Positions 39,478 through 43,230 of a stretch of DNA of 43,230 bases are shown piece after piece. The DNA is taken from contig CAMVMU010000010.1 of assembly GCA_947168655.1 (NCBI GenBank), forward strand, positions 1 through 43,230, written 5' to 3'. Under the pieces are notes generated by a model, which searched no databases, had not been told where the DNA came from, and worked only from the letters and a program-made list of their open reading frames with translations. This stretch comes from an uncultured Oscillospiraceae bacterium (GTDB taxonomy: Bacteria > Bacillota > Clostridia > Oscillospirales > Oscillospiraceae). The stretch's first letter is position 1; every line of letters starts with the position of its first letter. The position numbers and the translations under genes are program-made.

Positions 39478-39481
39478 AACT

Positions 39482-39642
39482 GCCCAAAAACGGCAATGCC
39501 GTTTTTGGGCAATGGGCTTGCAGCCTGCTGCGCGCACTCGCTTGCGTGAGACGCTCGCACACTTGCAGTCTGAGATGTGTATTTTGCCACGTACACGCCG
39601 CGGCAAAATACGATTAAATGTCTTCGCGTCTGCGGACGCGAA
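39482..39642 (-). repeat. Composite hairpin repeat, copy 1
   Basis: Read on the minus strand: hairpin C (39623-39642, stem TTCGCGTC), 11 nt, hairpin A (39579-39611, stem GTATTTTGCC), core (39515-39580) starting ACACATCTCAGACTGC and ending GGCTGCAAGCC, 4 nt, hairpin B (39482-39510, 13-bp stem GCCCAAAAACGGC). The core matches copy 2 at about 27/29 and 22/26 positions in its two halves; the hairpin stems do not match. It lies in the convergent gap between the K+ channel and M28 genes. I see no gene in it. Confidence 0.8.
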
Positions 39643-39670
39643 ATCTGCTATGCTTTATTGACGCGCTAAA

Positions 39671-39702
39671 CGGATCGCCGTATGCAACCATCCGGCGATC
39701 CG
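39671..39702. terminator. Terminator of the M28 peptidase gene
   Basis: Perfect 10-bp stem CGGATCGCCG/CGGCGATCCG with a 12-nt loop, located 5 bp past the M28 stop. Confidence 0.75.
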
Positions 39703-39707
39703 TTATT

Positions 39708-40937
39708 TTATTGTTCCTTGCGCTTGCGGTTCATGTACTCGTCCAGCTCGGTCTTCACCTTGTCGGGGATCTCCCGCTTTACCGGGCACCTGGCGGCGTC
39801 CGCCATGGCGGCGGTGAAATCCGCCAGGAAGTCGCCGTCTCGCTGAAGCCGTTCCGGCGAGAGGACCTCCATGGTGTCGTACCGGGTGTGGATGGCGGCT
39901 TGGCTGGGCGGCGCGATCCGGGCGAAGGACAAAGCGGGCACGCCTTTGTCGGCAAAGGGGGTGGAGTCGCTGGAGTAGACCCCCATATGGGGCGCAATCC
40001 CCCAGCCCCGCTGGGCGGCGAAGTAGCGGATGTAGCTGACCAGTCCCTCCTCGGCACTGCAGCAGGCGATGAACTTGCCCATATAGGTGCCGATCATGTC
40101 CAGATTGATGTTCAGCGCGATCTTCTCCAGCTCTGCCTCATGCTGATGCACGTACGCCTTGGAGCCCAGCAGCCCCCTCTCCTCACTGCCGCAGAAGACG
40201 AAACGCAGGCCGTAACGGTGGGGTGCCGTGGCGATCAGTTTTTCCAGAATGTGCAGCAGGCCCACGCAGCCGGACATGTTGTCGTAAGAGCCGTGGGACA
40301 GGGGCGTGGTGTCGTAGTGGGCGGACAGGACGATCCACTCGTCGGCCTTTCCGGGGATTTCCGCGATCACGTTGTGGGACTGACCGGCAGATTCCTCCTG
40401 CTCTACCGTAATGGTGATTTCCTTTACATTGCTTTTCACCAGATGGAATGCGTTCTTGGCGTTGATGTTCACGCCGGGGATCTTCTTCCCCATGGACACG
40501 TAGCTGCGCAGCTCCTTGTGATCGATGTCATTGTCCCGGAAATGGACGTTGCCGGTGTAGGTGATAAAACCCACGGCGCCGTTGGCCAGCAGGTCCTGAT
40601 AGAGGAAATAGCCCACGCCGGTGTCCAGGAGCACGATCTTGCCCCGGGCTGCCGTCAGGGAAGCGGGATCCGTGTTGGGCAGGTAGCAAAGCGGCGCCGT
40701 CACGGAGCTGCTGCCGCAGCATTTGTACCCCTTGCAGGGGATGGAACGTCCGTCCGCCAGCAGTGTGGCGTCGTGAACCTCCGCCATTTCCACGTCAAAT
40801 GCCTCCAGATGTGCCTCGGCGCCCAGGGCGCGGCACCGTTCAGCCAGGTATTCTGCCACACGCAGTTCCTCCGCCGTGCCGCTGGTGTGGATGAAGTCGG
40901 TATCCTTCAGGATTTGCCGGATCTCTCTTGTATTCAT
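39708..40937 (-). CDS. M28 family zinc peptidase with PA-domain insertion
   Basis: A 409-aa aminopeptidase-type hydrolase. A protease-associated insertion (about residues 65-150) precedes the catalytic domain. Zinc and catalytic motifs are LSAHYDTTP, YDNMSGC, CGSEERGLLGS, LNLDMIG and the last His in HTRYDTMEVL. There is no signal peptide, so it is probably cytoplasmic. Single-gene unit with a strong promoter. Confidence 0.9.
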   Translation of the reverse strand: MNTREIRQILKDTDFIHTSGTAEELRVAEYLAERCRALGAEAHLEAFDVEMAEVHDATLLADGRSIPCKGYKCCGSSSVTAPLCYLPNTDPASLTAARGKIVLLDTGVGYFLYQDLLANGAVGFITYTGNVHFRDNDIDHKELRSYVSMGKKIPGVNINAKNAFHLVKSNVKEITITVEQEESAGQSHNVIAEIPGKADEWIVLSAHYDTTPLSHGSYDNMSGCVGLLHILEKLIATAPHRYGLRFVFCGSEERGLLGSKAYVHQHEAELEKIALNINLDMIGTYMGKFIACCSAEEGLVSYIRYFAAQRGWGIAPHMGVYSSDSTPFADKGVPALSFARIAPPSQAAIHTRYDTMEVLSPERLQRDGDFLADFTAAMADAARCPVKREIPDKVKTELDEYMNRKRKEQ

Positions 40938-40966
40938 ATGATCCCCTCCGCTTGTTATTTCTCTCT

Positions 40967-40995
40967 ATTATACTGTCTGGATCCGGCATTTGCAA
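40967..40995 (-). promoter_or_regulatory. Promoter of the M28 peptidase gene
   Basis: TTGCAA (40990-40995), 17 bp, TATAAT (40967-40972) on the minus strand. Confidence 0.8.
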
Positions 40996-41012
40996 GGCAT
41001 AACGGGGAATAG

Positions 41013-41045
41013 AAAGGGAGCTTCGCCCATCGGGCGAAGCTCCTT
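41013..41045 (-). terminator. Terminator of the ECF S component gene
   Basis: Perfect 15-bp stem (AAAGGAGCTTCGCCC type, with one G bulge position at the base) and ATC loop, followed on the minus strand by CTTTCTATT. Confidence 0.85.
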
Positions 41046-41066
41046 TATCTGTATGAACTGGGACCG

Positions 41067-41627
41067 TTATGACCGTATTTTTTCCAGCAGCCCTGCCTTC
41101 TGCAGCGCCGCACGCAGAGCGGTGTAGAGGATGGGGGCGACGATCATGGCAAACACCGCGTTGATAGCGGACGCGGGGAACTTGCTCATTAGAGCCGCCC
41201 ACACCGTTTCTCCGGGGTAGCCGTAGACAAACTTCTGGTAAACGAAGGTTTTCAGCATATAGAGCGCCACATAGGTCCACGCACCGACAACGCAGGCAAC
41301 GATGTTCCAGCCGTGATTTTTTGCCTCCTTGTCGGCGGCAAAAGCGATCTTTCCGCAGACCCACGCCATGGCAAACTTGGAGACAAAGGTGACGAGGTAG
41401 GTGACCAGGTCGCTGGGATAGTAGAACACGTCAAACAGCATGGAACCCAGGCCGGCCGCCAGACCGCCGGCCAGAGGCCCCATCAGCAGTCCGCTCAGCA
41501 GGCAGACTGCGTTGGCAAAATGGACCTTGGAGCCCAGCAGAGGAAATCGAAAAAAGGTGACCACAAAGACCAGTGCCGTCAAAATCGCGATAAAGGCGAT
41601 TTTGTGGACCGTAAACTTCTTATTCAT
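41067..41627 (-). CDS. ECF transporter S component
   Basis: A 186-aa integral membrane substrate-binding subunit of an energy-coupling-factor vitamin transporter. It has about six hydrophobic segments. KVHFANAVCLLSGLLMGPLAGGLAAGLGSMLFDVF is the typical S-component stretch. The vitamin cannot be assigned; the common A and T energising subunits are not in this window, so it is probably a group II ECF system. No riboswitch was recognised in the 41628-41760 upstream region. An AGGAGG site precedes the ATG. Confidence 0.88.
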   Translation of the reverse strand: MNKKFTVHKIAFIAILTALVFVVTFFRFPLLGSKVHFANAVCLLSGLLMGPLAGGLAAGLGSMLFDVFYYPSDLVTYLVTFVSKFAMAWVCGKIAFAADKEAKNHGWNIVACVVGAWTYVALYMLKTFVYQKFVYGYPGETVWAALMSKFPASAINAVFAMIVAPILYTALRAALQKAGLLEKIRS

Positions 41628-41761
41628 ATCAATGCCTCCTGTGAACGCTTTCGTGCGGTTCTATGTGCCATCATACGCACAAACTGAACTGTTTGAAATA
41701 TCCAGTTTTGGATTATTAGATAATACCAGATTTAGGGCAGTCCGTCCGGCGTGTATTTTGC

Positions 41762-41790
41762 TTGCATCGGGGCGGGGGATATGTTATAAT
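41762..41790 (+). promoter_or_regulatory. Promoter of smpB
   Basis: TTGCAT (41762-41767), 17 bp, TATAAT (41785-41790), with TGT as extended -10. Confidence 0.75.
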
Positions 41791-41841
41791 ACATCTCCAG
41801 TTTGAGAAAGGGATCGGCTGATCCTGGAAAGGAGCGCCTCT

Positions 41842-42309
41842 GTGGAAAAGCGTGGGATCAAGACGGCGGCACAAAATCGCAAAGCATTTCACGACTATTT
41901 CGTGGAGGATCGCTATGAGGCCGGCATCGAGCTGTTCGGCACGGAGGTCAAATCCATCCGGGGCGGCGCGCTGAATCTGAAGGATTCCTATTGCCAGTGC
42001 AAGGATGGGGAGTTGTTTTGCTACAACCTGCATATTTCCCCCTATGAGCAGGGCAATATCTTCAATAAGGACCCGGATCGGCCCAAGCGCCTTTTGATGC
42101 ACAAGCGGGAGATCCGGCGGCTCCACGCCCTGCAAAAGCAGGACGGCTACGCACTCATTCCCCTGAGCGTCTATTTCAAGGACAGCCGGGTAAAGGTGGA
42201 GTTGGGCCTGTGCCGCGGCAAAAAGAACTACGACAAGCGTGCTGCCCTCGCCCAGCGTGACGCCAAGCGGGAGATGGACCGCGCCATGCGGGAGAAGAAC
42301 AGAGGATAA
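41842..42309 (+). CDS. smpB: SsrA-binding protein SmpB
   Basis: A 155-aa tmRNA partner that brings tmRNA to stalled ribosomes. The family opening [29 protein letters not shown], the [29 protein letters not shown] stretch and the basic C-terminal tail ([23 protein letters not shown]) are present. The start is a GTG at 41842 with AAAGGAG 7 nt upstream. ssrA itself begins 827 bp downstream. Confidence 0.97.
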
Positions 42310-42319
42310 GACCGAACCC

Positions 42320-42355
42320 CTGTCATTGCGAGGGCCGCAGGCCCGTGGCAATCCG
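42320..42355. repeat. Short dispersed palindromic repeat (TGTCATTGCGAG...GTGGCAATCC type)
   Basis: CTGTCATTGCGAGG at the left end and CCGTGGCAATCC at the right end enclose GGCC-gca-GGCC, giving an imperfect hairpin. The end sequences match a REP-like/MITE-like motif that I know to be scattered in many bacterial genomes. It lies between smpB and the cyclophilin gene. Confidence 0.55.
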
Positions 42356-42394
42356 CATGTTATTCCGTATTTTCATCCGAAAAGGAGAAACCAT

Positions 42395-42934
42395 ATGAAC
42401 AATCCCATTGTCACCATTGAAATGGAAAACGGCGGCAGGATCGTCGCCGAGCTGTACCCCGACGTTGCGCCTCAGAGCGTCTATAACTTTATCGAACTGG
42501 CCAACAGCGGCTTTTATAACGGACTGATTTTCCACCGCTGCATCTACGGCTTTATGATCCAGGGCGGCTGCCCCGATGGCACCGGCATGGGCGGCCCCGG
42601 CTACTGCATCAAGGGTGAGTTTGCCGCCAACGGCGTGCAGAACGATCTGCGTCACACCCGGGGCGTGCTGAGCATGGCTCGTGCCCAGCCCATGGACAGC
42701 GCCGGCAGCCAGTTCTTCATCATGCACAAGGACGCGCCCCATCTGGACGGCCAGTATGCCGCCTTTGGCATGGTCATCGAGGGCATGGACGTGGTGGATG
42801 CCATCGCCTCCGCTCCCCGGGACATGATGACCAACAAGCCCAAGAAGCCCCAGGTGATGAAGTCCGTCACCGTGGATACCAAGGGCGTGGAGTATCCTTC
42901 ACCGGAAAAACTGCCGGATCCCTTCGGCAGATAA
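42395..42934 (+). CDS. Peptidyl-prolyl cis-trans isomerase, cyclophilin type
   Basis: A 179-aa cytoplasmic cyclophilin. IFHRCIYGFMIQGGCPDGTGMGGPGYCIKGEF, GVLSMARAQPMDSAGSQFFIMHKDAPHLDGQYAAFGMVIEGMDVVDAI are the catalytic and substrate-groove blocks (FHR, MIQGG, SQFFI). The C-terminal KPKKPQVMKSVTVDT is normal. The ATG at 42395 follows AAAAGGAGA. No signal peptide. It lies between smpB and ssrA. Confidence 0.96.
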   Translation: MNNPIVTIEMENGGRIVAELYPDVAPQSVYNFIELANSGFYNGLIFHRCIYGFMIQGGCPDGTGMGGPGYCIKGEFAANGVQNDLRHTRGVLSMARAQPMDSAGSQFFIMHKDAPHLDGQYAAFGMVIEGMDVVDAIASAPRDMMTNKPKKPQVMKSVTVDTKGVEYPSPEKLPDPFGR

Positions 42935-42971
42935 ACTGCTGTATATCTCTCCCTCCGGGGATTATGATACG

Positions 42972-43126
42972 TACTTTGCCGCAAAGCAGCAAAGTAAAAA
43001 TGAGATTGTTTTTCTGACGACATGTGCGTCAGAAAAACACCTCTCAGACCGCAAGTGTGCGAGCGAAGTGAGTGCATGCAGCGGGCTGCAAGCCTTTCTC
43101 GTTCAAAATTCACAGATTTTGAACGA
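42972..43126 (+). repeat. Composite hairpin repeat, copy 2
   Basis: Hairpin C (42972-42996, stem TACTTTGC), 11 nt, hairpin A (43008-43038, 12-bp stem GTTTTTCTGACG), core (43037-43094) starting ACACCTCTCAGACCGC and ending GGCTGCAAGCC, 4 nt, hairpin B (43099-43126, stem TCGTTCAAAAT with loop tcacag). The spacing equals copy 1 (11 nt, 2-nt overlap, 4 nt), but the hairpin stems are different. It ends 10 bp before ssrA. Confidence 0.8.
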
Positions 43127-43136
43127 AAGAATATTT

Positions 43137-43230
43137 GGGGATGTACCGGTTTCGACGGGGGTGTAGAGGCCGGATAAGCGGGCGGTGGCGCCTGGCCACC
43201 TTAAAACGGGCAACTTAAAAAATAACTGAC
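43137..43230 (+). ncRNA. ssrA: tmRNA (SsrA), 5' part
   Basis: The 5' end GGGGATGTACCGGTTTCGACGG is the tRNA-like acceptor and D-loop region of tmRNA. CAACTTAAAAAATAACTGAC near the right edge corresponds to the segment just before the tag reading frame. By alignment with known tmRNAs the resume codon is probably GAC (43228-43230), the last bases of the window. The tag, pseudoknots and 3' half are outside. Together with smpB this gives both parts of trans-translation. Confidence 0.93.

Follow-up and report, generated by a model that had tools for sequence, protein, structure and literature searches.

A structured repeat of an uncultured Oscillospiraceae bacterium as a probable miniature transposable element of the IS1182 group

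The window analysed here is one whole contig of 43,230 nucleotides (C10, GenBank CAMVMU010000010.1) from the assembly of an uncultured Oscillospiraceae bacterium (GCA_947168655.1, genome code G000; 1.7 Mb, 78 contigs, estimated 76% complete). It carries two copies of a repeat built from four hairpins: copy 1 stands between a gene end and a putative terminator, and copy 2 stands just upstream of ssrA, the gene for transfer-messenger RNA (tmRNA). Judged from sequence alone, these repeats are very probably decayed copies of a miniature inverted-repeat transposable element (MITE) of about 200 bp, belonging to the IS1182 group of insertion sequences (IS). The support comes chiefly from Vescimonas fastidiosa MM35 (G019) and from loci that hold IS1182-family IS.

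Both copies lie where an earlier note on this contig had placed them, and their hairpins follow the order that it gave (Table 1). The constant spacing of 11 nt that it described between hairpins C and A is found in copy 1; in copy 2 the spacer is 10 or 11 nt, according to how the outermost T-A pair of A is treated. Between the copies, the two arms of the core show 91% and 86% complementarity.

Table 1. Position of the two copies, their parts and the adjoining features in the window
Feature	Position	Strand	Remarks
Stem-loop, putative intrinsic terminator, presumed insertion target	39669..39704	n/a	Abuts left end of copy 1; 16-nt arms, 94% complementary
Left terminal repeat, copy 1, IS1182-type	39654..39668	minus	At most 2 mismatches to G019 left end CAGYGTGTCAAAAAA
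Conserved structured interior, copy 1	39515..39653	minus	R1 match, E = 1.5e-35
Hairpin C, copy 1	39623..39642	minus	
Hairpin A, copy 1	39579..39611	minus	
Core hairpin, copy 1	39514..39578	minus	With the 8-nt apical insertion that 10 of the 18 aligned own copies have
Hairpin B and right-end region, copy 1	39481..39511	minus	Directly past stop codon of upstream plus-strand gene
Conserved structured interior, copy 2	42964..43094	plus	R1 match, E = 2.7e-21; 5' end degenerate
Hairpin C, copy 2	42972..42996	plus	
Hairpin A, copy 2	43007..43039	plus	
Core hairpin, copy 2	43040..43094	plus	
Hairpin B, copy 2	43099..43126	plus	Ten bases upstream of ssrA start
Start of ssrA (tmRNA)	43137-43230		Cut by contig end; ten bases past copy 2

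The repeat family and its fold

Copies in the own genome were gathered by BLAST with copy 2 and then with a covariance model, R1, built from 18 of them. The R1 search gives 22 good copies (E <= 7e-18) and a doubtful 23rd (E = 0.005), so that the core is not limited to its two occurrences in the window. Alignment A2, the basis of R1, holds 18 of the 22; outside it stand two copies with loop insertions (L044 at C4:33642-33830, in hairpin A, and one at C44:1804-1998, in the core) and two that were picked up by the model only (C41 and L046 at C2:14542-14684). The order C, A, core, B is fixed across the copies. Hairpin B is present in 17 of the 18 copies checked and lies 3 nt from the model end in 11 of those 17, hence hairpins do recur at the same offsets. 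The sequence of stem B is different in every one of these 17 own copies, whereas the count for 20 copies of the recent burst in G019 comes to only 8 versions; B thus looks like a part of the element that diverges with age.

In A2, 97.9% of the cells pair, against 28-51% in slid controls, none of 500 shuffles does as well as the real alignment, and 23 of the 37 pairs show two-sided changes. The earlier note's observation that the stems differ yet stay paired therefore holds well beyond the two copies of the window, and the stem exchange that it considered is unneeded for C, A and the core, because these vary by compensatory change. The values are 98.3% and 32 of 37 pairs for 94 distinct copies from other records (80 loci with the exact core pattern), and 98.2% and 30 of 37 for a 50-row set that adds G019, a genome of another family (G030) and other genomes of the genus; both alignments were fitted to the model and are hence biased towards it.

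Several unpaired stretches are largely conserved as well: GCMTCGCAGA precedes C, AATC precedes A, ACNTCTC precedes the core, and the hairpin A loop reads CATGTGC or CGTGTAC. Of 26 loci in other genomes, many have these stretches too. A pairing of the 5' linker with the ACNTCTC linker was examined by eye and dropped. At gathering score, the Rfam search of the whole window matched only a tRNA and left the element unmatched; at looser thresholds ssrA falls just under the cut-off at the contig end, and the other scores lie far under theirs; no known ribozyme matched.

Within the hairpin A loop, positions co-switch between GACATGTGC and GGCGTGTAC in most copies of A2, the window copies included, as if non-Watson-Crick loop contacts covary. 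In V. fastidiosa, L077-L096 carry an extra apical hairpin at the core apex, in several quite different sequence versions on copies that are otherwise near-identical. Finally, L044 and L046 of the own genome hold related inserts, starting with CCCCAAGGGCA, inside the hairpin loops of the element (in the A loop of L044 and apparently in C of L046), as though hairpin loops were the target of a second small repeat.

The repeat is widely but unevenly distributed. A first search of relatives covered 40 genomes, the own one included, and found between 1 and 74 matches in each of 25, namely in G030 and in 24 of the 25 genomes of the genus; at E <= 0.01 the number ranges from 0 to 74 within the genus and is 69 or 74 for G030, according to the depth of the search. 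A broader model, R2, applied to 394 genomes of the order at E <= 1e-6, gives matches in 52, which belong to 23 of the 168 genera and to families f1, f3, f7, f13 and f19; this search used stricter filters and scored at most 8 candidates per genome, so its copy counts are lower bounds and it may have overlooked weak cases. An exact pattern retrieved 105 stretches from GTDB contigs, and the 80 listed bear Oscillospiraceae, Ruminococcaceae and other Clostridia titles, including Oscillibacter sp. ER4 and Pseudoflavonifractor gallinarum. In IMG/VR, one pattern matched one contig and another pattern none, and similar stretches occur in five fecal phage-like records and three plasmid records.

Insertion at stem-loops and the link to IS1182

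In V. fastidiosa MM35 the element measures 202 bp and has 74 matches, with near-identical copies. Its ends are imperfect terminal repeats of the IS1182 type, the left one reading CAGYGTGTCAAAAAA and the right one, read backwards, GAGACTGTCGAAAAA. The duplication test was run on 34 distinct full-length copies out of the 74 matches, the partial copy L153 being dropped. Flank duplication scores at least 12 in 27 of the 34, compared with 1 of 1122 mismatched flank pairs, and in 26 of the 27 the duplications lie within 4 nt of both element ends. The duplicated unit is one stem-loop of 20-44 bp, typically a terminator. Copies in other records, tested with longer right flanks and fuller controls than in an initial short-flank version, score at least 14 in 17 of 79 cases versus 7 of 6162 mismatched pairs. 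A role of terminators as the insertion target is thus supported. The earlier note had offered a structured RNA, a REP/MITE-like element or a terminator cassette, and had thought a simple recent duplication unlikely: its MITE-like option and a fold kept by compensatory change both fit these data, and the terminators would be the target, not a cassette.

Congeners provide empty sites. We searched the flanks of eight G019 loci in 12 congeners and fetched seven stretches from five of the loci; each of the seven shows a hairpin and lacks the element. At L078 and L093 the single hairpin of the congener clearly is the duplicated one, which makes these two clean empty sites. At locus 1 of the window, the element is present in G011 and absent from G040 and G001, where a single terminator-like hairpin stands; at locus 2, before ssrA, it is absent, present or reduced to remnants in different congeners. 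In the own genome, a left stem-loop stronger than all 30 shuffles remains in 9 of 22 copies. The left-end pattern of G019 occurs at 23 sites, 21 of which coincide with known places of the element; the other two are L170, a copy with an internal deletion, and L178, a fragment. This pattern search of G019 gave no autonomous version.

Relatives of the IS1182 transposase were detected by protein search in 16 of the 394 genomes of the order. Among 22 IS1182 loci, some of them cut by contig ends, CAGNNTGTCRAAAAA-type ends (at most 2 mismatches) stand on both sides in 17, on one side in 3 and on neither in 2, and the G019 ends resemble these terminal repeats. Twelve of the 22 (three of the twelve in one genome, G230) sit between two copies of a stem-loop, so target choice and duplication are common to IS and element, chiefly as seen in G019 and at these loci. 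On plasmids, the IS1182 of Sutcliffiella horikoshii has a 30-bp stem-loop duplication, that of Exiguobacterium mexicanum has none, and the one of Thermocaproicibacter melissae is truncated at the start of its record. R1 has no match in the 22 loci, so the structured interior was not found there. MITE copies taken from different species share this interior but differ in their IS1182-type ends. In ISfinder, direct repeats of IS1182 elements have a wide range of lengths.

To explain these results we propose that an IS1182-family transposase, the likely mobiliser in place of the RAYT/Y1 enzyme that the earlier note had in mind, would act in trans on the MITE. It would join the 3' ends of the element to the 5' feet of a stem-loop extruded on each strand, and gap repair would then copy the stem-loop, leaving the element between two stem-loops.

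Several observations weigh against this explanation. The IS1182 transposase profile (NCBIfam NF033551) matches nothing in G000, G019, G024 and G030, thus no same-genome helper is seen where the element is abundant. Of 33 genomes, 6 match the profile, 2 of them above cut-off. A MITE can outlive its helper, and a helper in the same genome is not strictly a defining feature. Both window copies are decayed; flank duplication is kept in the own genome only at L030 (score 34), that is in 1 of 22 copies (controls of at least 12: 0 of 462), and the left end is recognisable under a two-mismatch rule in 4 of the 22, the rest being decayed. Even in G019, 7 of the 34 copies are without stem-loop duplication; at L086 and L090 the congener hairpin differs in sequence from the duplicated one, and at L085 G019 has an extra hairpin beyond the one that congeners have. 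In G030 there is no duplication excess (score of at least 14 in 2 of 32 copies versus 45 of 992 controls), which would allow the same interior to have spread there by a different route.

G030 copies such as L069, L098 and L103 have a further long hairpin after B, of the GCGGGAAAT...ATTTCCCGC type, and stem-loop duplication was not seen in them.

Which strand folds, and as what

We re-found the hairpins using Watson-Crick matches only, in 149 of 167 copies (18 were dropped for length, and weak hairpins, 2, 4 and 9 of them, were excluded). Mismatches of the G.T, A.C and other kinds number 106:5:18 in stem A, 47:4:58 in stem B and 8:5:4 in stem C. In four sets of copies, the fold of the C-to-B strand is more stable than that of its complement in 13 of 18, 62 of 77, 31 of 33 and 16 of 19. 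These counts show that the interior, as far as sequence can tell, pairs mainly on one strand. Strand-specific pairing, the absence of the interior from the IS loci and its spread over 52 of 394 genomes therefore favour RNA, and we think that the interior probably functions as RNA and that its fold is selected. Transcripts of the C-to-B strand would probably arise when transcription of neighbouring genes reads through, and the folded RNA would either aid persistence of the element or serve the host. Some data speak against an RNA: stem C is nearly free of G.T/A.C bias, other mismatches outnumber G.T in stem B, and the G.T/A.C counts are not independent because the copies are related. The orientation relative to genes is mixed and carries little information, as it was read from crude open reading frames of which long chance ones crossed many copies.

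A rather unlikely alternative, which concerns the interior only and is compatible with a MITE, is that the fold is kept as DNA, in cruciforms or single-stranded hairpins that are recognised by the transposase or by replication proteins. In its favour, folded DNA is probably what the enzyme recognises, given that the target itself is a stem-loop, and stem C lacks a clear strand bias. A cruciform, however, needs both strands paired, but stems A and B have far more G.T than A.C mismatches, and a wobble pair is kept in stem A (one pair in the 94-copy set reads GU 60, AU 21, CG 2 and GC 1); moreover, the interior is absent from the 22 IS1182 loci. Single-stranded DNA of one strand would be compatible with the strand data.

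The other rivals concern the whole element. An element of the repetitive extragenic palindrome (REP) or bacterial interspersed mosaic element (BIME) kind, spread by a RAYT (Y1) transposase, would likewise be short, palindromic and present in many copies, but we consider it highly improbable given the long target duplications and IS1182-type ends, which to our knowledge are not features of REP spread. We give still less credit to a relative of short interspersed nuclear elements (SINEs) copied by target-primed reverse transcription: the RNA-like interior and the variable target duplications of 20-44 bp would suit it, but ends and targets are common to IS1182, and RVT_1, the only reverse transcriptase family searched, is unmatched in G019, G000, G024 and G030 (7 of 26 searched genomes have a match). 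An equally faint prospect is a non-mobile host regulatory RNA or terminator cassette, in keeping with the conserved fold and with copies beside gene ends as in the window, but at odds with 0 to 74 matches per genome within the genus, near-identical G019 copies and empty sites.

Within the RNA explanation, we tentatively raise the possibility that an IS1182-type MITE captured a structured RNA, itself selected independently, and carried it into the terminators of many genes, as a bacterial SINE counterpart made by a DNA transposon. Altered termination would then put the element in many transcripts, and dozens of genes would share one RNA module.

Relation to known elements

BOX, RUP, NEMIS and ERIC are short, gene-less repeats that are able to fold if transcribed. 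The present element differs from them in targeting a whole terminator stem-loop and in an interior that is compensatorily kept across families of one order. With the IS1182-family IS it has in common the CAGNNTGTCRAAAAA terminal repeats and the position between duplicated stem-loops; unlike them, it has no transposase and carries a structured interior.

Among described systems, IS1272, a member of the IS1182 family, targets stem-loops and replaces them, and IS1272/TnSha1 of staphylococci uses stem-loops, some of them terminators, without sequence preference, as stated in two papers (PMC4923244, PMC5678879). Stem-loops as target are thus common to IS1272/TnSha1 and the element, but IS1272 is described there as deleting the stem-loop or taking its place, with no target duplication, whereas here the stem-loop is duplicated. 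IS1272-type replacement was accordingly rejected for the element, with stem-loops flanking both sides in 27 of 34 G019 copies. The legend of Fig. 13 in the 2017 paper (PMC5678879) draws, as pathway b, a joining of 3' ends at the stem-loop 5' feet that could duplicate the whole stem-loop, and the outcome drawn there is what the IS and MITE copies show. IStrons, which combine a group I intron with an IS, are likewise DNA transposons with a structured RNA (PMC4227781); the element differs from them in being about 200 bp long and gene-less and in matching no known ribozyme in Rfam. A search of the open-access literature found no description of the element.

The proposed MITE would account for a repeat without a match in Rfam that occurs widely in this order of gut bacteria. 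It would also supply many natural examples of whole stem-loop duplication, a pathway that a 2017 paper drew as possible, and through a MITE with a conserved RNA fold many gene ends could receive a common RNA module. V. fastidiosa, a cultured species with many near-identical copies, is suited to testing these ideas.

One more repeat is found in the window at 42318-42360, between two genes; it is of the form CTGTCATTGCGAG...GTGGCAATCCG, and similar stretches lie beside several copies of the element in other genomes.

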